Shown here one piece after another: positions 21,259 through 39,638 of a stretch of DNA of 45,902 nucleotides (position 1 is the first letter of the stretch; every line of letters begins with the position of its first letter). The notes below the pieces were generated by a model that saw only the letters and a list, made by a program, of their open reading frames with translations, was not told where the DNA came from and made no database searches. The DNA comes from Rhodobacterales bacterium HKCCSP123. GTDB taxonomy: Bacteria > Pseudomonadota > Alphaproteobacteria > Rhodobacterales > Rhodobacteraceae. The stretch lies in the NCBI GenBank assembly GCA_015689745.1, contig WVSO01000020.1, positions 1 through 45,902 of the forward strand, written 5' to 3'. A program made the position numbers and the translations under genes.

Positions 21259-21333
21259 GGCCCGTTCGTCTATCGGTTAGGACGCCAGGTTTTCAACCTG
21301 GAAAGAGGGGTTCGATTCCCCTACGGGCTGCCA
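21259..21333 (+). tRNA. tRNA-Glu (anticodon UUC)
   Basis: The 75-nt gene folds into a full cloverleaf, with U8, the D-arm around TCTATCGGTTAGGA, anticodon stem CCAGG/CCTGG with loop TTTTCAA (anticodon TTC), and T-arm AGGGGTTCGATTCCCCT. A genomically encoded CCA is present (21331-21333). The acceptor stem GGCCCGT/ACGGGCT pairs over all seven positions with G1-U72 as a wobble pair. Accessory genes begin right after its 3' end, so it may be an island attachment site. Confidence 0.97.
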
Positions 21334-29272: not shown

Positions 29273-29585
29273 CGGCAAAAATTGTCGTGCTTCATTATTT
29301 CGGTCAAGAGACCGATTGTGCCACCGTCGGGTGCGGGCGGGGGACCCGGCGACCGCCCTCCCGAGGCCGGGCTGCAGAATGGTCCGACATGCGCCTCTCC
29401 GTCTCCGCAGCCGACGCGGCCCGCCGCGTCACCGGGACCAGGCCGAGCCCCCCAAGCGCCCCGTTTCAAGGCGACACCCGCGCCCGTCGCCCAAAAAACG
29501 GGCAGTCGGGCCGATGCGGCCAGGGCGGCCCCCTGCTTTCCTTAGGGGCCCCCGCCCGTTCAGCCTACTGCTTGGGTCAGCAGGG
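29273..29585. other. Intergenic stretch with hairpins upstream of the guanidine operon
   Basis: The first ~40 bp are AT-rich (AAAATTGTCGTGCTTCATTATTT) and probably hold the promoter of the minus-strand kinase/sulfotransferase pair. Two inverted repeats follow: GCCCGT (29482-29487) with ACGGGC (29498-29503), and GGGCGG (29523-29528) with CCGCCC (29552-29557), enclosing CCCCT/AGGGG. The riboswitch promoter should lie here, but no clear -35/-10 stands out. Confidence 0.45.
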
Positions 29586-29694
29586 CATTTAGGGTTCCGC
29601 CGGTCCGCAGATGCGGCCGGGCCTGGTCCGAGAAATGCAGCCGGTCCGGCAAATTCCGGGACGGTACACGGCGGGCCAAAATCCCGGGAGAGCA
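29586..29694 (+). promoter_or_regulatory. Guanidine-I (ykkC class) riboswitch
   Basis: All conserved blocks of the guanidine-I aptamer appear in order and spacing: TAGGGTTCCG (29590-29599), GGTCCGAGA (29625-29633), ACACGG (29666-29671), and GGGCCAAAATCCCGGGAGA (29673-29691). GC-rich pairing segments connect them. It lies about 80 bp upstream of an ABC-transporter and guanidine-hydrolase operon, exactly the expected gene class, so it should switch these genes on when guanidine binds. A possible expression platform pairs GGGAG (29686-29690) with CTCCC (29715-29719). The aptamer is a strong match to remembered consensus; the platform is inference. Confidence 0.9.
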
Positions 29695-29775
29695 CTGCAC
29701 ATCGAGTTCGGCCGCTCCCCTGAACGCTCGCTTCCGGTCGGACGTGGAACATCATCCAACCGGAGGACCCGGACC

Positions 29776-30840
29776 ATGACCAGACTTGCACTCGCCGCCA
29801 CCACCGCCCTCGGCCTCGTCCTCGCGCCGGGCTTCGCCACCGCGCAGGAGCGGGACAGCTTCCGCGTGGCATGGTCGATCTACGTGGGCTGGATGCCCTG
29901 GGGCTATCTCGAGGAGAGTGGCATCATGGACCGCTGGGCCGAGCGCTACGGCATCGACGTCGAGATCGTGCAGATCAACGACTATGTCGAGTCCATCAAC
30001 CTCTATACCGCGGGCGAGTTCGACGGCGTGACCGCCACGAACATGGACACGCTCTCGATCCCCTCGGGCTCGGGCGTGGACACCACCGCGCTGATCGTCG
30101 GCGATTTCTCCAACGGCAACGACGCCGTGATCCTCAAGGGCGAGGGCACGCTGGAAAGCCTCGCGGGGATGCCCGTGAACCTCGTGGAACTGTCCGTCTC
30201 CCACTACCTGCTCGCCCGCGCGCTCGACAGCGTGGGGCTGGCCGAGCGTGACCTTGCAGGCGTGGTGAACACCTCCGACGCCGACATGATCGCCGCCTTC
30301 CAGACCGACGACGTGCAGGCGGTCGTCACATGGAACCCGCTCGTCTCCACCATCGCCGAGGACCCCGCGGCCAACATCCTCTTCACCTCCGCCGACATCC
30401 CCGGCGAGATCATCGACATAATGGTCGTCAACACCGAGACGCTGGCCGCCAACCCCGATTTCGGCCGCGCGCTGGTGGGCGCCTGGTACGAGTTGATGAC
30501 GATCATGTCGTCCGACACGGACGAGGGCATCGCCGCCCGCACCGCCATGGCCGAGGCGTCGGGCACCGATCTTGCGGGCTATGACGCGCAGCTCGCCTCG
30601 ACCCAGATGTTCTGGAACCCCGCCGATGCCGTCGCCTTCGTCGAAAGCGAGACCCTGCCCGAAACCATGGTCACCGTGGCCGAGTTCCTCTTCGATCAGG
30701 GCATCCTGGGCGAGGGCGCGCCGAGCGCCGATTTCGTCGGCATCGAATACCCCGGCGGCGTGACCACGGGCGACAGCGGCAACATCCGGCTGCGCTTCGA
30801 CCCAAGCTTCATGCAGATGGCCGCCGACGGCGCGCTCTGA
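29776..30840 (+). CDS. ABC transporter substrate-binding protein (probable guanidine uptake)
   Basis: The 354-aa protein has a signal peptide (MTRLALAATTALGLVLAPGF, cleavage after ATA near residue 23). The NitT/TauT-like periplasmic binding fold shows in FRVAWSIYVGWMPWGYLEESG, in the EFDGVTATNMDTLSIPS segment, and in VQAVVTWNPLVSTI. Relatives accompany urea-carboxylase or guanidine-degradation genes. It is the first gene after the guanidine-I riboswitch and is preceded by GGAGGA. It probably captures guanidine in the periplasm for the permease/ATPase pair that follows. The substrate is inferred from context. Confidence 0.88.
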   Translation: MTRLALAATTALGLVLAPGFATAQERDSFRVAWSIYVGWMPWGYLEESGIMDRWAERYGIDVEIVQINDYVESINLYTAGEFDGVTATNMDTLSIPSGSGVDTTALIVGDFSNGNDAVILKGEGTLESLAGMPVNLVELSVSHYLLARALDSVGLAERDLAGVVNTSDADMIAAFQTDDVQAVVTWNPLVSTIAEDPAANILFTSADIPGEIIDIMVVNTETLAANPDFGRALVGAWYELMTIMSSDTDEGIAARTAMAEASGTDLAGYDAQLASTQMFWNPADAVAFVESETLPETMVTVAEFLFDQGILGEGAPSADFVGIEYPGGVTTGDSGNIRLRFDPSFMQMAADGAL

Positions 30841-30868
30841 GCCACCGGGCCGAAGGGGAGCGCGCGCC

Positions 30869-31681
30869 ATGCGTCTCATCAACCGACGCGCGGGCCCGGT
30901 CAGCCGGGTGGCACTGGCCGCGCTTCCCTTCGTGCTGGTGGGGCTGGCCTATGCCTCGGCCTCCGCCGCGCGGCTGGCCGAGAACCCGCAGGACCGCGTC
31001 CTGCCCTCGCCGGCCACGCTGCTGGACACGGCCGTGCGCCTGATGACGGATGAGGACCGCCGCTCGGGCGAGATCCTGTTCTGGGGCGACACGCTCTCCA
31101 GCCTGACGCTCTTGTTCTCGGGCGTCGGCATCGCCGCCGTCATCGGGCTGTGCGTCGGGCTGGCCATCGGTCTGGTGCCGCTGGTGCGCACCAGCCTGCA
31201 GGGCTTCGTCGCGGTCCTGTCGATGATCCCGCCCTTGGCGCTTCTGCCGATCCTCTTCATCTCGCTCGGCGTGGGCGATGCCGCAAAGGTGGCGCTCATC
31301 GCCATCGGCATCACCCCCTTCCTGATCCGCGACCTTGCCGCGCGCACGATGGAACTGCCGCAGGAACAACTGGTGAAGGCGCAGACGCTGGGTGCCTCGA
31401 CGCTTTCCATCGCGCTTTCCGTCGCGCTGCCCCAGATCATGCCGCGGCTTCTGTCGGCGCTGCGCCTGTCGCTGGGGCCTGCGTGGCTGTTTCTCATCGC
31501 GGCCGAGGCCGTGGCCTCGGACAGTGGCCTTGGCTACCGCATCTTCCTCGTCCGCCGCTTCCTCGCCATGGACGTGATCCTGACTTACGTGGCCTGGATC
31601 ACCTTCCTCGCCTTCGCGATCGACTGGCTTCTCGCCCAAGCCTCCCGCCGCCTCTACCCCTGGGCCGAGGTGCGGGCATGA
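30869..31681 (+). CDS. ABC transporter permease (probable guanidine uptake)
   Basis: The 270-aa inner-membrane protein has about six hydrophobic segments and the binding-protein-dependent permease EAA loop (QEQLVKAQTLGASTLSIALS followed by VALPQIMPRLL). The ATG at 30869 is preceded by AAGGGGAG. Its stop overlaps the ATPase start (ATGA), so translation is coupled. It would form the homodimeric membrane channel of the transporter. Confidence 0.92.
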   Translation: MRLINRRAGPVSRVALAALPFVLVGLAYASASAARLAENPQDRVLPSPATLLDTAVRLMTDEDRRSGEILFWGDTLSSLTLLFSGVGIAAVIGLCVGLAIGLVPLVRTSLQGFVAVLSMIPPLALLPILFISLGVGDAAKVALIAIGITPFLIRDLAARTMELPQEQLVKAQTLGASTLSIALSVALPQIMPRLLSALRLSLGPAWLFLIAAEAVASDSGLGYRIFLVRRFLAMDVILTYVAWITFLAFAIDWLLAQASRRLYPWAEVRA

Positions 31682-32484
31682 GCTTCGTCACTGTCGAGAA
31701 CCTGTTCCAGAGCTATGGCCGCCGCCCGATCCTCGAACGCGTGAACCTGACAGCCGAGGAAGGCGAGTTCGTCTCCATCGTGGGCGCGTCGGGCTGCGGG
31801 AAATCCACCTTCCTGCGCCTGCTGCTCGACCAGGAGCGCCCGACGCGGGGCGAGATAACGGTGGACGGCCAGCCGCTGCGCGGCGAACCCGACCGCTCGC
31901 GCGGCATCGTGTTCCAGCGTTATTCCGTCTTCCCGCACCTGACGGTGCGCGACAACATCGTCGCGGCCGAAGGCCTGTCGCGCCCGCTGGGCCGCCTTTT
32001 CGGCACGGTCAAACGCGCCGCCCGCGCGCGGGCCGAGGCCGCGCTCGAGCGGATCGGGCTGGCCCATGTCGCCGACCAATACCCCGCCGCCCTCTCGGGC
32101 GGGATGCAGCAACGCCTTGCCATCGCGCAGGCGCTGGCCGCCAAGCCGCGCATCCTGCTGCTGGACGAGCCCTTCGGCGCGCTCGACCCCGGCACGCGCG
32201 AGCAGATGCACGCCTTCCTGCAGGACCTCCGCGCCGAGACGCGGATGACCGTCTTCATGGTCACCCATGACCTGCCCGAGGCCTTCAAGCTGGGCGACCG
32301 CGTCATCGTCTTCGACAAGACCCGCTGGGACCCCCACGACCCCGCCGCCTATGGCGCGACGATCACCTATGATTTCGACGCGCGGAACGGCGGCTTCCCC
32401 TATCAACTGCAAGAGGACCAAGATGATCTTGAGAGAGACGAGGATCACCCGGTCGCATCACCCGGCCGACCGGCCGACGCGTGA
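31678..32484 (+). CDS. ABC transporter ATP-binding protein (probable guanidine uptake)
   Basis: The ATG at 31678 overlaps the permease stop and gives 268 aa. Motifs are complete: Walker A GASGCGKST (36-44), Q-loop Q80, signature LSGGMQQR (139-146), Walker B ILLLDEP (159-165) and switch H197. A C-terminal tail after residue 215 (WDPHDPAAYGATITYDFDAR) resembles ATPases linked to urea-carboxylase-type transporters, from memory. The last 62 bp may overlap the guanidine hydrolase gene, depending on its start. Confidence 0.93.
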   Translation: MSFVTVENLFQSYGRRPILERVNLTAEEGEFVSIVGASGCGKSTFLRLLLDQERPTRGEITVDGQPLRGEPDRSRGIVFQRYSVFPHLTVRDNIVAAEGLSRPLGRLFGTVKRAARARAEAALERIGLAHVADQYPAALSGGMQQRLAIAQALAAKPRILLLDEPFGALDPGTREQMHAFLQDLRAETRMTVFMVTHDLPEAFKLGDRVIVFDKTRWDPHDPAAYGATITYDFDARNGGFPYQLQEDQDDLERDEDHPVASPGRPADA

Positions 32485-33667
32485 TCGCCGCGCCCATCAC
32501 CCAGACCTGACCCGCCTGCAGGGCTGGCGCAGCATGAAGGCCGAGGCCGACTTGCCCGAAGGCCGCTGGGACGAGGAACGCCGCTGGGCGCTGCGCATGG
32601 GCCTGACCGGCGCGGACTCGATCGACGACAAGTCGATCCCCACCTTCGCGCGCGGCGAGCTTCCGCATTACGCGGGCATCAACACCTTCCTCAAGGCCCC
32701 CTATGCCGAGGATGTGCTCGAGGTCGCCAATTACGACGCCACGGTCCTCGGCATCCCCTTCGACGGCGGCACCACCTACCGCCCCGGCACCCGCTTCGGG
32801 CCGCAGGGCCTGCGCAAGATCAGCGCGCTCTACACGCCCTACAATTACGAGATGGCCGTCGACCTGCGCGAACAGATGACGCTCTGCGACGCGGGGGATG
32901 TCTTCACCATCCCCGCGAACCTCGAGAAAAGCTTCGACCAGATCAGCCGCGCGGTGAGCCACGTCTTCTCCTCCGGCAGCTTCCCGGTGATGATCGGGGG
33001 CGATCATTCCATCGGCTTTCCTTGCGTGCGCGGCATCGCCGAATGCACCTCGAAGAAGATCGGGATCGTCCATTTCGACCGCCACGCCGACATCCAGGAA
33101 AAGGACCTGGACGAACGCATGCACACGACGCCGTGGTTCCACTCCACCCTCCTGCCCAACGTGCCCGCCAAGAACCTCGTGCAGGTCGGCATCGGCGGCT
33201 GGCAGGTCCCGCGCGAGGCGGTGAAGGTCGCGCGCGAGCGCGAGACCAACATCATCACCATGTCGGACATGGAGAAGATGGGCGTCGACAAGACCGCCGA
33301 GATGGCGCTGGAGATGGCCTGGGACGGCGTCGACATGGTCTACATGTCCTTCGACATCGACTCGATCGACTGCGGCTTCGTCCCCGGCACCGGCTGGCCC
33401 GAACCCGGCGGCTTCCTCCCGCGCGAGGCGCTGGCGCTGGCCTCCAAGGTCGCGGCCGAGGGGCTGTGCGGCATGGAGCTGGTCGAGGTCTCGCCGCCCT
33501 ATGACACCTCCGACATCACCGCGCTGATGGGCACCCGCGTGATCGTGGACGTGCTGGGCAGCATGGTCGCCAACGGCAAGATGGGCGCGCACAAGCGGCA
33601 CATCGACAAGCCCGTCAGCATCCCGCACGGCGAGTTCGAGGGAAAGAGGTGGTCCAATGCCACATGA
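32423..33667 (+). CDS. gdmH: Guanidine hydrolase (Ni-dependent, arginase superfamily)
   Basis: The product should hydrolyse guanidine to urea and ammonia. All six ureohydrolase metal ligands are present: H195 (GGDHS), D219, H221 and D223 (HFDRHAD), and D311 and D313 (SFDIDSID). Features recalled from cyanobacterial GdmH (Sll1077) are also seen: HYAGINTFLKAPY, MHTTPWFHSTLLPN, VGIGGWQVPR, CGFVPGTGWPEPGG and VEVSPPYD. The guanidine riboswitch and transporter upstream support this over agmatinase. ATG 32423 has an AAGAGGAC site and gives 414 aa; ATG 32534 would avoid the overlap with the ATPase gene and give 377 aa. The active metal is nickel in characterised homologues. No urease genes lie in the window. 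Confidence 0.9.
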   Translation: MILRETRITRSHHPADRPTRDRRAHHPDLTRLQGWRSMKAEADLPEGRWDEERRWALRMGLTGADSIDDKSIPTFARGELPHYAGINTFLKAPYAEDVLEVANYDATVLGIPFDGGTTYRPGTRFGPQGLRKISALYTPYNYEMAVDLREQMTLCDAGDVFTIPANLEKSFDQISRAVSHVFSSGSFPVMIGGDHSIGFPCVRGIAECTSKKIGIVHFDRHADIQEKDLDERMHTTPWFHSTLLPNVPAKNLVQVGIGGWQVPREAVKVARERETNIITMSDMEKMGVDKTAEMALEMAWDGVDMVYMSFDIDSIDCGFVPGTGWPEPGGFLPREALALASKVAAEGLCGMELVEVSPPYDTSDITALMGTRVIVDVLGSMVANGKMGAHKRHIDKPVSIPHGEFEGKRWSNAT

Positions 33668-34115
33668 CCACCATCACCACGGGCACGGGCATGATCACGG
33701 CCATGACCACGGGCATCACCACCCCCACGGCCACAACCACGCCCATGCCGACCATCTCCATTCCCACCTCATGCCCGAGGATCGGGCCGCCGACCTGCAG
33801 GTCCTGACCGCGCAGTTCATCGACGGTTTCGTCACGGCCCGCGACAAGGCCGCCTACCTCAAGCTTGCGGGTGTGCCGCTGGAGCGCCCCGGCAAATCCG
33901 GGCCGGGCATGCTGAAACTGGTGGATGTGGAGCTGAAGACCGAATGGCAGGTCGGCACCGCCTCCCCCTCCTTCGGCTCGCACGAGTTGAGCTACCTACC
34001 GTTCCCGGGCGAGATGATCCGGGAGCGCACCAACATGAGCCTCGTCTACGTCTCGATGACCGAGAAGGACCTGCTCGATATCCGCGATTTCCTTGCAGAA
34101 AAAGAAAGGGACTGA
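33657..34115 (+). CDS. Histidine-rich protein, candidate metal chaperone
   Basis: The 152-aa protein opens with an extreme metal-binding tail: 20 histidines in residues 1-38, spaced by Gly and Asp (MPHDHHHHGHGHDHGHDHGH and on). The remaining ~110 residues look folded: DLQVLTAQFIDGFVTARDKAAYLKL, a central strand-rich part (MLKLVDVELKTEWQVGT), and MSLVYVSMTEKDLLDIRDFL. It lacks HypA zinc cysteines and any HypB GTPase motif. It overlaps gdmH by 11 bp, so translation is coupled. A nickel-storage or insertion role for GdmH is a strong contextual inference, comparable to the His-rich tails of HypB, SlyD or UreE. I do not recognise the C-terminal domain. Confidence 0.85.
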   Translation: MPHDHHHHGHGHDHGHDHGHHHPHGHNHAHADHLHSHLMPEDRAADLQVLTAQFIDGFVTARDKAAYLKLAGVPLERPGKSGPGMLKLVDVELKTEWQVGTASPSFGSHELSYLPFPGEMIRERTNMSLVYVSMTEKDLLDIRDFLAEKERD

Positions 34116-34118
34116 CCC

Positions 34119-34295
34119 ATGATCCGCACCAATCTCGCCGCCCTCGCCCTTCTGGCCGCGACCGCCCCCGTCCATGCGCATGAGGCCGGCGGCCTTGCGC
34201 ATCTCCACCCCCACGGGACCGAGGCGGCGCTGGCCGCCCTTGCCCTGTTCGTCGGCGCGGTCTTCCTCTGGCGCGCCGTCACGCGCAACCGGTAA
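34119..34295 (+). CDS. 58-aa membrane peptide with periplasmic His stretch
   Basis: The ATG lies 3 bp after the stop of the His-rich gene. The protein has a signal-like start (MIRTNLAALALLAATAPVHA), a short histidine segment HAHEAGGLAHLHPHG, and one membrane helix ALAALALFVGAVFLWRA ending in RNR. If the signal is cleaved, the His-rich part becomes the mature periplasmic N-terminus. A HEAGGLAHLHPHG-like start is also reminiscent of HupE/UreJ-type nickel proteins, but this one is far too short for that family. A role in periplasmic nickel binding for the guanidine hydrolase system is inference. Confidence 0.75.
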   Translation: MIRTNLAALALLAATAPVHAHEAGGLAHLHPHGTEAALAALALFVGAVFLWRAVTRNR

Positions 34296-34303
34296 GCACC
34301 CCC

Positions 34304-34334
34304 GCGGGCGTCCTCCTCAACCGATGACGCCCGC
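34304..34334. terminator. Stem-loop between convergent operons
   Basis: GCGGGCGTC (34304-34312) pairs perfectly with GACGCCCGC (34326-34334), a 9-bp stem with a 13-base loop. It lies 9 bp after the last gene of the guanidine operon and spans the stop codon of the convergent CoA-transferase gene. It can act in both directions; there is no T-tract. Confidence 0.55.
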
Positions 34335-35507
34335 CGCCCTCAGCGCCGCGATCTCATCGGCGCCGTATCCCGCCTCGGCCAGCACATCCCCCGTTTGTGC
34401 GCCGAGGTCGGGAACCGGGTGGCGCACCGAAAGCGGCGTCTCCGAGAACTTGACGGGAAACCCCGTCATCCTCACCGTCCCATGCCCCGGATGCGGCACC
34501 TCCAGCACCATCTCCTGCGCCGCGACCTGCGGGTCGGCCAGCGCCTCGGTCACGCTCTGCACCTTGCCGCAGGGCACGCCCGCGGCGTTCAGCCGCTCGA
34601 TCCAATGGGCTTGCGTCTCGCGGCCGACGGCCTCGTTCACCAGCGCGTTCAGCGCGGCCCGGTTCTCGACGCGGGCGGCGTTCTGCGAAAACCGCGGATC
34701 GTCCAGCAGCTCCGACAGGCCGATTTCCTTCAGGAACCGCGCGACGAAGACATCGGTCGAGGGCGAGACCGCGATATCCCCGTCGCTGGCCCGGAACAGG
34801 CCGTAGGGCGCGACGATGGGATGATCGTTGCCCGTCGGCACCGGGTCGCGCCCCGTGGCCAGCGCGCCCGAGGACATGTAGGCCATCATCGAGATGATGG
34901 ACATCATCATCGAGGCCTCGACCCGCTGCGCCGGTCCCCCCCGCTCGCGCCCACGCAGGGCCGCGACAGCCCCCAGTGCCGCGTAAAGCCCCGCGATGAG
35001 GTCGGTCAGCGGCGGCCCCGTCCTGAGCGGCCCGGTCTCGGGCGTGCCGTTCGTCGCCATGTAGCCCGACATCGCCTGCGCGATGAAGTCGAAGGCCGGG
35101 CGGTCGGCATAGGGCCCGGTCGAGCCGTAGCCGTTCACGCTGACCACGATCAGGTCGGGGTTGATCGCGGCCAGCCGCGCCTCGGTCAGGCCCATCTCGT
35201 CCAGCACGCCGGGGCGGTAGTTCTCGGTCAGGATGTCGGCCTCGGCCAACAGCCGCTCCAGCACCGCCAAGCCCGCAGGGTTCCGCAGGTCCAGCGCGAC
35301 CGAGCGCTTGTTGCGGTTGAAGCCCGCGAAATACCACGACAGCCCGTCGCGGATATGCCCCTGCCCCCGCACCGGGTCGCCGCCCTTCGGGCTTTCGATC
35401 TTGATCACCTCCGCGCCCAGGTCGCCAAGGATCATGGAACAGAACGGCCCCGACAGGATGCGCGTCAGGTCCACGACCCGGACGCCGGACAAGGGAAGCG
35501 CGCTCAT
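34317..35507 (-). CDS. CaiB/BaiF family CoA-transferase (family III)
   Basis: The 396-aa protein transfers CoA between carboxylic acids without a free acyl-CoA intermediate. The N-terminus GVRVVDLTRILSGPFCSMILGDLGAEVIKIE is typical. The catalytic Asp is D169 in TGPPLTDLIAGL, and KRSVALDLRNPAGL binds CoA. Its ATG overlaps the stop of the lyase gene (ATGA), so the two form one operon. It probably activates the acid that the lyase then cleaves; donor and acceptor are unknown. Confidence 0.92.
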   Translation of the reverse strand: MSALPLSGVRVVDLTRILSGPFCSMILGDLGAEVIKIESPKGGDPVRGQGHIRDGLSWYFAGFNRNKRSVALDLRNPAGLAVLERLLAEADILTENYRPGVLDEMGLTEARLAAINPDLIVVSVNGYGSTGPYADRPAFDFIAQAMSGYMATNGTPETGPLRTGPPLTDLIAGLYAALGAVAALRGRERGGPAQRVEASMMMSIISMMAYMSSGALATGRDPVPTGNDHPIVAPYGLFRASDGDIAVSPSTDVFVARFLKEIGLSELLDDPRFSQNAARVENRAALNALVNEAVGRETQAHWIERLNAAGVPCGKVQSVTEALADPQVAAQEMVLEVPHPGHGTVRMTGFPVKFSETPLSVRHPVPDLGAQTGDVLAEAGYGADEIAALRAAGVIG

Positions 35508-36469
35508 CCCGCCGCCGTCGCCGTCAGGCCCGGATCGTAGCGCCTGAGGCGCGGGCCGGACTTGATCACCTGCCCCGGCAGCTCGCGCCCGATCACGCCT
35601 TGCGTGAGCTTCGCCGCCTCGATCATCTTCTCCAGGTCGACGCCGGTGTCATAGCCGCTTTCGTTCAGCAGGTAGACCAGGTCCTCGGTGCAGATATTGC
35701 CCGTGGCCCCCGCGGCGAAGGGGCAACCGCCAAGCCCGCCGACCGAGGCGTCGTAATGCGTCACCCCCTCGGCCAGCCCCGTCATCACGCAGGCCAGGCC
35801 GACGCCGCGGGTGTTGTGGAAATGCAGGCCGATGCCCAGCCCCGGCGCCTCGGCCCTTATCGCCTGCACCGCGGCGCACACCGTGCTGGGCGTGGCCATG
35901 CCGGTGGTGTCGCCGAGGCCCACGGACGTCGCGCCAAGCTCTTGATATCGCTTTGCGATCTTCGCCACCTGCTCGGGCGGCACGACCCCTTCGAAGGGGC
36001 AGCCGAAGGCCGTGGCGATGCCCCCCTCGATCTTGACGCCCGCGCGGATCAGCATTTCGCAGACCGCCTCGAAATCCCGCAAGGAGGCGTCGATCGTCCG
36101 GTTCACGTTCTTCAGGTTATGCGTCTGCGACGCCGACACGACCGTGTGGACCGCATCCACCCCCGCCCCCGCCGCGCGCTCCGCGCCGCGCAGGTTCGGG
36201 ATCAGCGCCGTGATCACCGCCCCCTCGGGCCGGTCGATGCCCGCCAGCACCGCCTCGGCATCGGCGAGTTGCGGCACGGCGCGCGGGCTGACGAAACTGG
36301 TGACCTGCATGTGACGCAAGCCGGCGGCGAACAACGCGTTGACGATCTCGATCTTCTTGTCGGTCGGGATGAAGGCGGCCTCGATCTGGAACCCGTCGCG
36401 CGGCCCCACCTCGCAGATCGTGACGCGGGCGCCCTCGGGCACGGGGGCAACTGCTGCGGCGCTGGCCAT
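35504..36469 (-). CDS. Hydroxymethylglutaryl-CoA lyase family protein
   Basis: This TIM-barrel lyase cleaves a 3-hydroxy-3-methyl acyl-CoA, classically HMG-CoA to acetoacetate and acetyl-CoA. Motifs are ICEVGPRDGFQIEA (catalytic Asp and metal site, 18-31), LHFHNTRGVG (metal-binding histidines) and the signature GGLGGCPFAAGATGNICTED with the catalytic Cys. The ATG at 36467-36469 has GAGGAG at the right spacing and gives 321 aa; ATG 36475 is too close to it. The CoA-transferase and TTT transporter around it imply catabolism of an imported branched acid rather than leucine degradation. Confidence 0.92.
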   Translation of the reverse strand: MASAAAVAPVPEGARVTICEVGPRDGFQIEAAFIPTDKKIEIVNALFAAGLRHMQVTSFVSPRAVPQLADAEAVLAGIDRPEGAVITALIPNLRGAERAAGAGVDAVHTVVSASQTHNLKNVNRTIDASLRDFEAVCEMLIRAGVKIEGGIATAFGCPFEGVVPPEQVAKIAKRYQELGATSVGLGDTTGMATPSTVCAAVQAIRAEAPGLGIGLHFHNTRGVGLACVMTGLAEGVTHYDASVGGLGGCPFAAGATGNICTEDLVYLLNESGYDTGVDLEKMIEAAKLTQGVIGRELPGQVIKSGPRLRRYDPGLTATAAG

Positions 36470-36594
36470 GTCCATCACTCCTCTGGTCGGGCCCCTGATC
36501 GAGGCTGATCGCGCGCATGATGCCCCGCCGGAAATCCGCGCTTCAAGGGGATGAACCATAGACATCGCCAACAATGGGCCAGCCATGAATTTCC

Positions 36595-36604
36595 GTGATA
36601 TCAC
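36595..36604. promoter_or_regulatory. Palindrome in the lyase-tctC divergent promoter region
   Basis: GTGATATCAC is a perfect 10-bp palindrome embedded in CCGTG...CACGG symmetry (36593-36612), within the 220-bp gap between the divergent lyase operon and tctC. It is a reasonable operator for the LysR gene at the end of the tct operon. The assignment is inference. Confidence 0.4.
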
Positions 36605-36689
36605 CCCCACGGCGCCCGGAACCCCCCTTGAAAAACGCCGCAGGATCGCATCCCCTCACCCTCGGGTTTTTACTGGGAGGAGAAAACCG

Positions 36690-37664
36690 ATGATCTTTCG
36701 CAGCCTGACATCCGTGAAGCTGGGGGCCGCGCTGGCCGCCACGATGACGCTGACGGCCCTGCCCGCCAGCGCGACCGAATGCATCGCGCCCTCGAACCCC
36801 GGCGGCGGCTGGGATTTCACCTGCCGCACCATCGGCCGCATCCTGAGCGAGCTGGAGCTGGTCGACGGCAACGTGCAGGTCACCAACATGCCCGGCGGCG
36901 TGGGCGCCGTGACCTTCGCCATGGTCGCCGCCGAGCGCGCCGATGACGCCGACCTGATCGTCGCCACCTCGACCGTCGGCATCACCCAGATCGCGCAGGG
37001 CCGCTACCCCGCCCCGCTCGAGACGATGCGCTACCTCGCCATGCTGGGCGCCGACGTGGGCGTGATCGCGGTCGACAACGACAGCCCGATCCAGACGCTG
37101 GCGCAGCTCAACGAGGCGATGGCCGCCGACCCGACCAGCCTTGTCACCGCGGGCTCCTCGGGCGCGGGTGGCTGGGACCACATCCGCCTTCTGATGGTCG
37201 CGCAGGAAGCGGGCGTCGAAGACCTCGGCGCGATCCGCTGGGTGCAGTTCGACGGCGGCACCGATGCCGTCACGCAGATGATGGGCGGTCAGATCGACGT
37301 GGTCTCGACCGACCTGGGCGAGATCGCGGGCTTCGTCGAGTCGGGCGACATCCGCATCCTCGCTGCCCTCAGCGACGAGCCGATCCCGGCCTTCCCCGAT
37401 GTGCCCACCGCCGTCAGCCAGGGCGTCGACGTGATCGGCTACAACTGGCGCGGCCTCTACACCGGCGGCCAGGTGACCGACGAGCAGTACGCCGAGTGGG
37501 TCTCGAAGCTGGAAACGCTCTACAACTCGCCCGAGTGGCAGGAGGCGGCCACCGCATCCGGCCTCGTCCCGATCTGGCGCGGCGGCGACACCTTCGAAGC
37601 CTTCGTCCGTGAGCAGGCGCAGGTGATGGAGCAGATCTCGCGCGATATCGGCGTCATCGAATGA
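36690..37664 (+). CDS. tctC: TTT transporter substrate-binding protein (TctC family)
   Basis: The 324-aa periplasmic protein has a signal peptide ending TALPASA near residue 29. The Bug/TctC fold shows in CIAPSNPGGGWDFTCRTIGRIL, VTNMPGGVGAVTFAM and the FPDVPTAVSQGVDVIGYNWRG segment. An excellent GGGAGGAG site precedes the ATG at 36690. It delivers a carboxylate to the TctA/TctB membrane subunits. The ligand is unknown, but the divergent CoA-transferase and lyase suggest a di- or tricarboxylate such as a 3-hydroxy-3-methyl acid. Confidence 0.93.
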   Translation: MIFRSLTSVKLGAALAATMTLTALPASATECIAPSNPGGGWDFTCRTIGRILSELELVDGNVQVTNMPGGVGAVTFAMVAAERADDADLIVATSTVGITQIAQGRYPAPLETMRYLAMLGADVGVIAVDNDSPIQTLAQLNEAMAADPTSLVTAGSSGAGGWDHIRLLMVAQEAGVEDLGAIRWVQFDGGTDAVTQMMGGQIDVVSTDLGEIAGFVESGDIRILAALSDEPIPAFPDVPTAVSQGVDVIGYNWRGLYTGGQVTDEQYAEWVSKLETLYNSPEWQEAATASGLVPIWRGGDTFEAFVREQAQVMEQISRDIGVIE

Positions 37665-38092
37665 GCGTAAGGATCCTGGGCGTCGCGATCTTCGTGATCG
37701 CGGCGCTCTACACCCGGCAGGCGGGGACCTATGCCGTCACCTTCGGCGATGTGCTGGGGCCGACGGTCTTCCCGATCATCGTGGGCATTCCCATGATGAT
37801 CCTCTCCGCCTCGCTGGTGGTGTTCCCGACGGGGCAGGTCGACTGGCCTGCCCCGCAACGGATGGGACGGCAGGCGGCCGCCCTTGCCGTGCTGGTGGGC
37901 TACACCATGACGCTCGAGCCGCTTGGCTTTCCGCTCGCCACCTTCGCGCTCATCGCGCTGATCGGCATCATCCTCGGCGGTGCGCCGTGGAAGGCCGTCG
38001 TGCTGGGCGCGGTGATGGCGCCCGCGCTCTGGGCGCTCTTCGACCAGGTGCTGGGCCTGCCGCTCGATTTTCTGGGTGAACTCTTCGTCTGA
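37661..38092 (+). CDS. tctB: TTT transporter small membrane subunit (TctB family)
   Basis: The 143-aa protein has four hydrophobic segments, including ILGVAIFVIAALYTRQAG, VFPIIVGIPMMILSASLVVF and FPLATFALIALIGIILGG, which is the TctB layout. Its ATG overlaps the tctC stop (ATGA). It forms the small subunit of the secondary, ion-driven transporter. Sequence conservation in this family is low; the assignment relies on topology and position between tctC and tctA. Confidence 0.9.
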   Translation: MSVRILGVAIFVIAALYTRQAGTYAVTFGDVLGPTVFPIIVGIPMMILSASLVVFPTGQVDWPAPQRMGRQAAALAVLVGYTMTLEPLGFPLATFALIALIGIILGGAPWKAVVLGAVMAPALWALFDQVLGLPLDFLGELFV

Positions 38093-38120
38093 GACCGGAC
38101 GGGGACAAGGGATCGTAGAC

Positions 38121-39638
38121 ATGGAAATCCTGTCGCTTCTGGGCCAAGGCTTCGTCGTCGCGGCGACGCCGCTCAACATCGGCCTCCTGCTGATGGGCTG
38201 CTTCATCGGCACGCTTCTGGGCGCGCTGCCCGGCCTCGGCCCGGTGAACGGGGTGGCGGTGCTGATCCCGCTGACCTTCGCCTTCGGCTTCGATCCCACC
38301 TCCTCGATGATCCTGCTCTGCGCGGTCTATTTCGGCTGCATGTACGGCGGGCGGATCAGCTCGATCCTGCTGAACATCCCCGGCGACGAACCGGCGATCA
38401 TGACCACGCTCGACGGCTACCCGATGGCCGTGCAGGGCCAGGCCGCGAACGCGCTCGCCATCTCCGGCGTCGCCTCCTTCGTGGGGGCGACCATCGCGGT
38501 GCTCGGCCTGTCGCTCTTCGCGCCCGTGCTGGCGCGCGCCGCGATCCACTTCGGCCCGGCCGATTATTTCGCCCTCTACATCCTCGCCTTCGCCACCATC
38601 GGCGGCATCGCGGGCGTGGACCCGCGCAAGACGCTTCTGTCGGCGCTGATCGGCCTGTTGCTGGCGACCGTGGGCCTCGACCCGATCTCGGGCGTGCCGC
38701 GCTACACTTTCGACAGTTTCCACCTCTACGACGGGATCGAGCCCATCGTGGCCCTCGTGGGTCTCTTCGCGATCTCGGAAATCCTGATGCTGCTGGAGAT
38801 GCACCTCAAGGACCGGCCCAAGGCCATCCCCGTGGGCAGCTGGCTGCCGCAATGGGGGGCGATCTGGAAGACGCGCGCGGCGATGCTGCGCGGCTCAGGC
38901 GTGGGCTTCGTCGCGGGGGTCCTGCCCGGCGCGGGGGCCTCGCTGGGGTCCTTCATGGCCTATGTCGCGGAAAAGCAGTGGTCCAACAAGAAAGGCACCT
39001 TCGGCAAGGGCGACCCGCGCGGCGTGGCCGCCCCCGAAGCGGGCAACAACGCCGCCTCGGGCGGTGCGCTGATCCCGATGCTGTCGCTGGGCGTGCCCGG
39101 ATCGGGCACCACCGCCGTTCTGCTTGCCATGCTCATCTCGCTGAACGTGCAGCCGGGGCCCCTCCTGTTCGAGCGTCAGCCCGATCTGGTCTGGGGCCTC
39201 GTCGCCTCGCTCTACATGGCGAACATCGCGCTCCTGATCCTGAACCTGCCGATGATCGGCATCTTCACGCGGCTGATGATGACGCCCACATGGGCGCTGA
39301 TGCCGGTCGTCGCCGCCGTCACCTTTGTCGGCGTCTACGGCATCTCGAACTCGGTCTTCGACCTCGAGATGATGGTGGCCTTCGGGGTCATCGGCTACGT
39401 CCTGCGCAAGATGGACGTGAGCCTCGTGCCGCTCGTCCTCGGCCTCCTGCTCGGCGGCGACATGGAGCGCAACCTGCGCCGCGCGATGTCGATCTCGGAC
39501 GGCGACTGGTCCATCCTGATCGCCAGCCCCATCTCCATCGGCCTCTACATCCTGACCGCGGGCTTCCTCGTGCTCTCGGTCTGGCTCGCCGTGCGCGACC
39601 ACAGGCAGACCCAGGCCGAGCGCCTGACCGAAGGGTGA
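38121..39638 (+). CDS. tctA: TTT transporter large membrane subunit (TctA family)
   Basis: The 505-aa protein has about 11-12 membrane segments. The TctA motifs GALPGLGPVNGVAVLIPLTF and MYGGRISSILLNIPGDEPA (residues ~45-105) are seen, with the repeated half LPGAGASLGSFMAYVAEKQW and GNNAASGGALIPMLSLGVPG in the middle. The ATG at 38121 is chosen, 28 bp after tctB. Its stop overlaps the GTG of the LysR gene, so the regulator belongs to the same transcript. Confidence 0.95.
   Translation: MEILSLLGQGFVVAATPLNIGLLLMGCFIGTLLGALPGLGPVNGVAVLIPLTFAFGFDPTSSMILLCAVYFGCMYGGRISSILLNIPGDEPAIMTTLDGYPMAVQGQAANALAISGVASFVGATIAVLGLSLFAPVLARAAIHFGPADYFALYILAFATIGGIAGVDPRKTLLSALIGLLLATVGLDPISGVPRYTFDSFHLYDGIEPIVALVGLFAISEILMLLEMHLKDRPKAIPVGSWLPQWGAIWKTRAAMLRGSGVGFVAGVLPGAGASLGSFMAYVAEKQWSNKKGTFGKGDPRGVAAPEAGNNAASGGALIPMLSLGVPGSGTTAVLLAMLISLNVQPGPLLFERQPDLVWGLVASLYMANIALLILNLPMIGIFTRLMMTPTWALMPVVAAVTFVGVYGISNSVFDLEMMVAFGVIGYVLRKMDVSLVPLVLGLLLGGDMERNLRRAMSISDGDWSILIASPISIGLYILTAGFLVLSVWLAVRDHRQTQAERLTEG

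Follow-up and report, generated by a model that had tools for sequence, protein, structure and literature searches.

A histidine-rich protein encoded beside the guanidine hydrolase of Alphaproteobacteria as a candidate nickel metallochaperone

How does a guanidine hydrolase of the nickel-dependent kind obtain its metal in a bacterium whose genome lacks the nickel chaperones HypA and HypB? This question is raised by an operon in a stretch of 45,902 nucleotides from Rhodobacterales bacterium HKCCSP123 (GenBank assembly GCA_015689745.1, contig WVSO01000020.1, positions 1 to 45,902 of the forward strand). The whole stretch is called the window here; it is contig C101 in our numbering, and the genome is 99.7% complete. 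The operon combines a guanidine-I riboswitch, the genes of an ATP-binding cassette (ABC) transporter, a gene for a guanidine hydrolase of the GdmH type and two small genes for His-rich proteins, which we call his1 and his2. The GdmH enzyme of Synechocystis is reported to require the nickel-delivery proteins of its own operon (PMC12186494, available text), and the related metformin hydrolase to depend on HypA/HypB, with hupE encoded downstream (PMC11399263, available text). As shown below, his1 is tied to gdmH in all close relatives examined, and it is our candidate for the nickel helper of this enzyme. The operon is composed as follows:

29578 to 29692, plus strand: guanidine-I (ykkC) riboswitch aptamer (Rfam RF00442, 75.6 bits)
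29693 to 29775, plus strand: leader from the aptamer to the first gene, probable expression platform (predicted fold only)
29776 to 30840, plus strand: ABC transporter substrate-binding protein (SBP), presumed guanidine receptor (NCBIfam TIGR03427)
30869 to 31681, plus strand: ABC transporter permease (PF00528, 65 bits)
31678 to 32484, plus strand: ABC transporter ATP-binding protein (PF00005, 127 bits)
32534 to 33667, plus strand: GdmH, guanidine hydrolase (guanidinase), by sequence of the nickel-dependent kind (scores, residues, tree)
33657 to 34115, plus strand: his1, core of about 105 residues behind a His-rich N-terminus, candidate nickel metallochaperone for GdmH (linkage to gdmH)
34119 to 34295, plus strand: his2, 58 residues, proposed periplasmic metal-binding helper (make-up and slot after his1)

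A scan of named genomes revealed at least 567 stretches that encode a relative of GdmH, and the best 80 of these were used as the main set of loci. Being the best of so many relatives, they are close kin of the window; their record titles, by which the kind of organism was judged, point mostly to Rhodobacteraceae or Roseobacter kin. The gene his1, which in the window begins within the end of gdmH, was found near gdmH in all 80 loci. It often overlaps the stop of gdmH, and the distance to its chosen start is 60 bases or less in 72 of the 80 and 440 bases at the maximum (587 bases in L009, which is not among the 80). An earlier sample of relatives gave his1 beside 10 of 11 gdmH matches. The eleventh, in G067, is a gdmH-like piece truncated by the end of its contig, with no his1 within 9.5 kb, and was excluded from the counts. 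Even a diverged his1 with 26-33% identity adjoins gdmH in five loci, whose GdmH is still 74-77% identical and groups with the Sinorhizobium enzyme.

Two evenly drawn genome samples provide a fairer test of this linkage than the 80 close-kin loci, with the reservation that the 80 may include one or more of the sampled genomes. Using cut-offs of E 1e-100 or better for gdmH and E 1e-5 or better for his1, we found gdmH in 7 and his1 in the identical 7 genomes of a sample of 398 Pseudomonadota. The second sample, 385 Alphaproteobacteria that share only G000 and G375 with the first, contained gdmH in 11 and his1 in 13 genomes, all 11 included. Taken together, the two samples comprise 16 distinct gdmH genomes, and in 16 of 16 his1 lies within about 350 bases, as judged from the match coordinates. 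The two additional his1 genomes, G564 and G782, showed no gdmH match at E 1e-100 in the whole genome and none in the stretches flanking his1, and in both cases the his1 copy is damaged. About 92 residues are left in G564 (L157, 7079-7348), with the N-terminus gone and an in-frame stop. The copy in G782 (L158, 9260-9933) consists of the core without the N-terminal His tract and has a His-rich tail instead. It stands directly behind an SBP gene that is cut after about residue 142, in another frame, possibly owing to an assembly error, and a tblastn search detected no piece of gdmH in the surrounding 11.5 kb. An intact his1 without gdmH was thus not seen in the two even samples, and neither of the two genomes supplies a second client for his1.

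The his1 protein consists of an N-terminal region of variable length and a conserved core. In every one of the 80 loci at least five His residues (median 16) lie ahead of the final 105 residues, and the N-terminal region is free of cysteine in 77 of the 80. The core has 25 invariant columns across 39 sequences. The protein matches no Pfam or NCBIfam model and therefore neither PF01155 nor TIGR00073, the models for HypA and HypB; a comparison of 17 members with Pfam yielded one weak match to DUF761 and nothing else, and a his1 profile matched no sequence in the PDB. Structure models of the whole protein (mean predicted local distance difference test score 74.6) and of the core alone (83.1) yielded no Foldseek match to the PDB with an E value of 0.001 or below. 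The best Foldseek matches (E 0.37 and 0.14) were chains with COMM domains, with cystatins lower down, and were taken as chance. In the literature, no title or abstract opening was found that describes a His-rich partner of guanidine hydrolase; Funck et al. 2022, reportedly among the first papers on GdmH, its supplement or the riboswitch surveys could hold one. It is his1 that is new in this operon.

To this linkage comes the lack of the usual nickel chaperones. Homologues of HypA or HypB were absent from all 98 gdmH loci searched with tblastn, using HypA and HypB of related genomes as queries and positive controls that were found. These loci comprise the 80 close-kin loci, 14 further alphaproteobacterial ones (one from a plasmid) and four actinobacterial ones, and the only weak HypB matches (L161 and L165) are both UreG-like. 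At the level of whole genomes we analyzed 15 that carry gdmH, including G020 with a completeness of 82%; G008, which is 73% complete and carries gdmH and his1, was left out. HypA is absent in 10 of the 15, the window genome included, and HypB above the cut-off is absent in the same 10. The HypB match below the cut-off in the window genome turned out to be UreG (295 bits). The simplest explanation for a His-rich protein so strictly linked to a nickel enzyme without its usual chaperones is that it acts as the chaperone of this enzyme, and we regard delivery of nickel to GdmH by his1 as the likeliest reading and as moderately probable.

Two other roles for his1 have to be weighed against nickel delivery. 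It could serve GdmH as a partner or regulatory subunit, with the his1 core binding and stabilizing the enzyme and the His tract being a side feature. The good conservation of the core, the position directly behind gdmH and often over its stop, and the damage to his1 in both genomes without a gdmH match would all fit such a subunit. However, the His-rich N-terminus is kept in every one of the 80 loci despite its variation in length, the chaperones that are known activators of this enzyme family are otherwise missing from the operon, and the guanidinase of Nitrospira inopinata is described as a hexamer that is active without such a partner (PMC11410670, available text). We consider such a subunit function unlikely. 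It is slightly less probable still that his1 and his2 store or detoxify metals such as nickel, zinc or cobalt during guanidine metabolism and deliver nothing to GdmH. The many histidines and the nearly general absence of cysteine in the his1 N-terminus, as well as the optional occurrence of his2, are in agreement with storage, but a general metal store should also turn up in places without gdmH nearby, and in the samples of 398 and 385 genomes a his1 without gdmH occurs in just two, both times damaged.

The hydrolase scores 545 bits against the solved guanidinase of Synechocystis (7esr) and 533 bits against that of N. inopinata (9fek), with identities of 66% and 63% over the aligned part. The next solved relative is proclavaminate amidinohydrolase with 172 bits, followed by metformin hydrolase with 134 bits or less, and the solved agmatinases and arginases score lower still. 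The initial annotation had read six metal ligands from the sequence, and all six (H158, D182, H184, D186, D274 and D276) are present and common to both solved guanidinases; we take these positions to be metal ligands from the arginase family, and the metal in the window enzyme would presumably be nickel. The residues reported for substrate specificity are Thr97 and Trp305 in Synechocystis and Thr105, His222, Trp313 and Glu344 in N. inopinata (PMC11410670, available text). They map to T81, H197, W288 and E318 of the window hydrolase and are all conserved, the chain index being the published number plus 2 at each specificity site. The underlying alignment has 135 rows, among them loci that occur more than once, and does not serve as a count. 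In a tree of 28 rows the window enzyme falls inside a guanidinase clade of 23 rows (100/100) together with Synechocystis and Nitrospira, and the alphaproteobacterial GdmH proteins form one clade of 17 rows (100/99). Proclavaminate amidinohydrolase, guanidinobutyrase, guanidinopropionase and both other ureohydrolases of the window genome remain outside. This is a single tree with long outer branches; it contains no agmatinase or arginase row, these enzymes being compared by score only, and it agrees with the scores and the residues. As judged from these sequence comparisons the hydrolase is a guanidinase, in line with the GdmH-type assignment made at the outset, and the operon is almost certainly a guanidine hydrolase operon. 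That an agmatinase or another guanidino-acid hydrolase has been mistaken for GdmH is highly improbable: two NCBIfam agmatinase models do match the hydrolase (205 and 168 bits), but both below their cut-offs, and this reading, like that of a guanidinobutyrase, was rejected on the basis of the scores, the retained specificity residues and the tree, with a guanidine riboswitch upstream as a further point against it.

Two relatives of the enzyme deviate. On an Embleya plasmid (NZ_CP108785.1; L111, 7001-8038) a GdmH-like protein has Thr in place of the specificity Trp that corresponds to W288; it is the outermost row of the guanidinase clade and possibly acts on another substrate. In L010, from contig C7 of G008, the gdmH reading frame is broken into two that overlap, with residues 1-322 in one and 322-376 in the other, which indicates a frameshift or an assembly error in this 73% complete genome.

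The second His-rich gene, his2, starts four bases after his1 in the window. As judged from motif and hydropathy only, its product has a start resembling a signal peptide, then HEAGGLAHLHPHG, then one hydrophobic stretch, and is probably an exported membrane protein. A his2-like small gene directly after his1 was recognized in 47 of 80 loci, compared with 15 of 900 control windows under the same rule, and a looser rule recognizes it in 49. The rule had initially given 52 of 90; without L007, where the gene is 282 bases off, 51 were left, and the final count takes into account that L003 and L014 are one genome and that L001 is the window. In most cases the his2-like gene overlaps the his1 stop by four bases. 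Among 14 more distant loci the slot of his2 is occupied in two, L109 (Sinorhizobium fredii) and L101, by a true nickel permease of the HupE/UreJ family (153 and 169 bits, cut-off 23). The his2 protein itself does not match the HupE/UreJ model PF04955. We claim a shared slot and no kinship, because the likeness of the his2 motif to the N-terminus of HupE was not significant by profile. A function of his2 in the handling of metals is conceivable, and we suggest it tentatively.

Urea is the expected product of the hydrolase, and the initial annotation had remarked that no urease lies in the window. This is correct; the genome search revealed a single match to the urease alpha subunit, on contig C57, with ureG about 4 kb away. 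Urease alpha is encoded in 15 of the 15 gdmH genomes and HupE in 13, in the window genome elsewhere than in the operon. Our working model is as follows. In the presence of guanidine the guanidine-I riboswitch would switch on the single operon, the ABC transporter would import guanidine, and GdmH, as a member of the ureohydrolase family with a dinuclear nickel centre, would split it into urea and ammonium. The urea would be degraded by the urease encoded on the other contig near ureG. The his1 protein, presumably cytoplasmic by its sequence, with a compact alpha/beta core behind the His-rich N-terminus, would load GdmH with nickel and so stand in for the chaperones of the HypA/HypB type that cyanobacteria use. 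The his2 protein would be exported, held by a one-helix anchor and expose its histidines to the periplasm, where it may help to collect nickel for uptake, possibly via the HupE permease encoded elsewhere. A further-reaching proposal, which we put forward as possible but with some reserve, is that his1 is the founder of a novel metallochaperone family for nickel that has no relationship to HypA/HypB, requires no GTPase and serves GdmH as its single client. It would have been established at the root of the alphaproteobacterial GdmH clade as a replacement for HypA/HypB-like helpers, and his2 would be a minimal, single-helix periplasmic nickel collector at the position that hupE has in some relatives.

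Several observations weigh against nickel delivery by his1 and a helper role of his2. Proteins for storage and detoxification can have histidine-rich tracts as well, and in the Foldseek comparison with the PDB no known chaperone fold resembles the his1 core. The rule did not find his2 in 33 of 80 loci, its suggested homology to the N-terminus of HupE failed in the profile comparison, and the search for HupE was negative in G434 and G187. No his1 is present in the stretch covered of four actinobacterial gdmH loci (L107, L108, L110 and L111). Five of the 15 his1 genomes carry HypA/HypB away from gdmH, so nickel could be supplied in trans there. Finally, the guanidinase regions of comammox bacteria are reported to contain no nickel chaperones, and none was reportedly found in the N. 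inopinata genome (PMC11410670, available text); GdmH may therefore do without a nickel chaperone.

The initial annotation had placed a guanidine-I riboswitch at 29586-29694, and the Rfam covariance search confirmed it at 29578-29692 with 75.6 bits (gathering score 63) and over the full length of the model (1-107 of 107). The three transporter genes, the GdmH-type hydrolase gene and the two His-rich genes on the plus strand are likewise real, the latter two being open frames with homologues or look-alikes at the same place in other genomes. With a model built from the window aptamer and 11 relatives, the riboswitch was detected in 77 of the 80 loci, once truncated at a contig end. L047 and L090, which begin too near to gdmH to show it, and L074 were negative. 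In more distant gdmH loci the Rfam riboswitch was present in 6 of 8 stretches (the cut fragment L105 included) and in 5 of 9. In the minimum free energy fold of the leader a Shine-Dalgarno-like GGAGG before the first ATG sits in a stem, with a z-score of only -0.88; this predicted arrangement would suit translational control. Terminator-like pairing between the 3' end of the aptamer and the leader, compared in 31 sequences (the window and 30 of the 77 riboswitch loci), was not longer than in shuffles (mean 5.39 versus 5.53) and was rejected.

The substrate-binding protein scores 523 bits (cut-off 334) with TIGR03427, the name of which, putative urea ABC transporter substrate-binding protein, is an annotation. 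For the permease the best NCBIfam model is TauC, with a score below the cut-off. Guanidine would be the substrate of the transporter. The ABC genes precede gdmH within 6.5 kb in nearly all of the 80 loci; the substrate-binding protein is absent in three, the permease in two and the ATPase in one.

Some loci show a reduced or different arrangement. L074, from Rhodobacteraceae AG-470-P20, contains gdmH and his1 and neither riboswitch nor ABC genes in the searched flank. In L099 (G187, contig C2, 7432-8855, minus strand) a riboswitch lies about 0.2 kb upstream of gdmH-his1 and the stretch holds no ABC genes, so that gdmH-his1 looks like the smallest guanidine-induced unit. A plasmid of Rubrobacter indicoceani (NZ_CP031116.1; L107) has the riboswitch, gdmH, a sodium:solute symporter gene, a formamidase gene on the opposite strand and urease genes together, without his1.

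Operons of this general type have been published. The Synechocystis gene sll1077 and its analogs often share an operon under riboswitch control with three ABC genes, hypA and hypB (PMC8390497), and comparable operons with gdmH, hypA/hypB and ABC genes are described in PMC12186494 and, for marine picocyanobacteria, in PMC10119275 (available text in each case). Because of these publications, and because gdmH and his1 occur in 80 of 80 loci, nearly always accompanied by ABC genes and in 77 loci by the riboswitch, the whole set of riboswitch, transporter, hydrolase and helpers is not distinctive, contrary to the first impression. The sensing, uptake and hydrolysis of guanidine that had been read from the operon are well supported by homology, and the accessory genes are new as stated. 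Besides cyanobacteria, which had been named at the outset, comammox Nitrospira is known to have GdmH (PMC11410670, available text). The main parts thus make up an ordinary guanidine assimilation operon, and the nickel-helper part is what is new.

The operon of Synechocystis sp. PCC 6803 consists of sll1077 (gdmH), hypA/hypB-like genes, the ABC transporter genes sll1080-1082 and a guanidine-I riboswitch. The window shares with it the riboswitch class, the ABC transporter, the hydrolase (66% identity over the aligned part) and a slot for nickel accessory proteins, but this slot contains an unrelated His-rich protein instead of HypA/HypB homologues and, in addition, a small His-rich membrane protein. 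With comammox N. inopinata it has in common a guanidinase under riboswitch control (63% identity over the aligned part); there an APC permease and no nickel chaperones are reported (PMC11410670, available text), in contrast to the ABC transporter and his1 of the window. The operons for metformin or dimethylguanidine hydrolase of Aminobacter and Pseudomonas comprise hypA, hypB, two ureohydrolase genes and hupE. They also combine a nickel ureohydrolase with dedicated nickel helpers, and hupE follows as it does after his1 in L101 and L109, but the enzyme is heteromeric and belongs to another subfamily (134 bits or less), HypA/HypB are present, and a gene like his1 is not mentioned in the available text (PMC11399263). 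Next to the window operon, at 34317-39638, the minus strand encodes a CoA-transferase III and an HMGL-like lyase, and the plus strand encodes TctC and TctA, which belong to a tripartite tricarboxylate transporter; a tRNA gene is located at 21259-21330 on the plus strand.

HypB, UreE and SlyD represent the type of the His-rich nickel chaperone. In general terms his1 can be likened to them as a protein with a His tract that is encoded beside a nickel enzyme, but it differs in having no Pfam or NCBIfam domain and no match to a PDB fold.

The results indicate that the use of guanidine through GdmH is well represented in Alphaproteobacteria, beyond cyanobacteria and comammox bacteria. The mechanism of nickel loading of the comammox guanidinase has been called unclear (PMC11410670, available text), and the metal choice in ureohydrolases an open question (PMC11399263, available text). 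With his1 there is a concrete candidate for how GdmH acquires nickel where HypA/HypB are absent. If this proves true, a chaperone with one client and without a known relative would provide a simple system for the metal choice in ureohydrolases.

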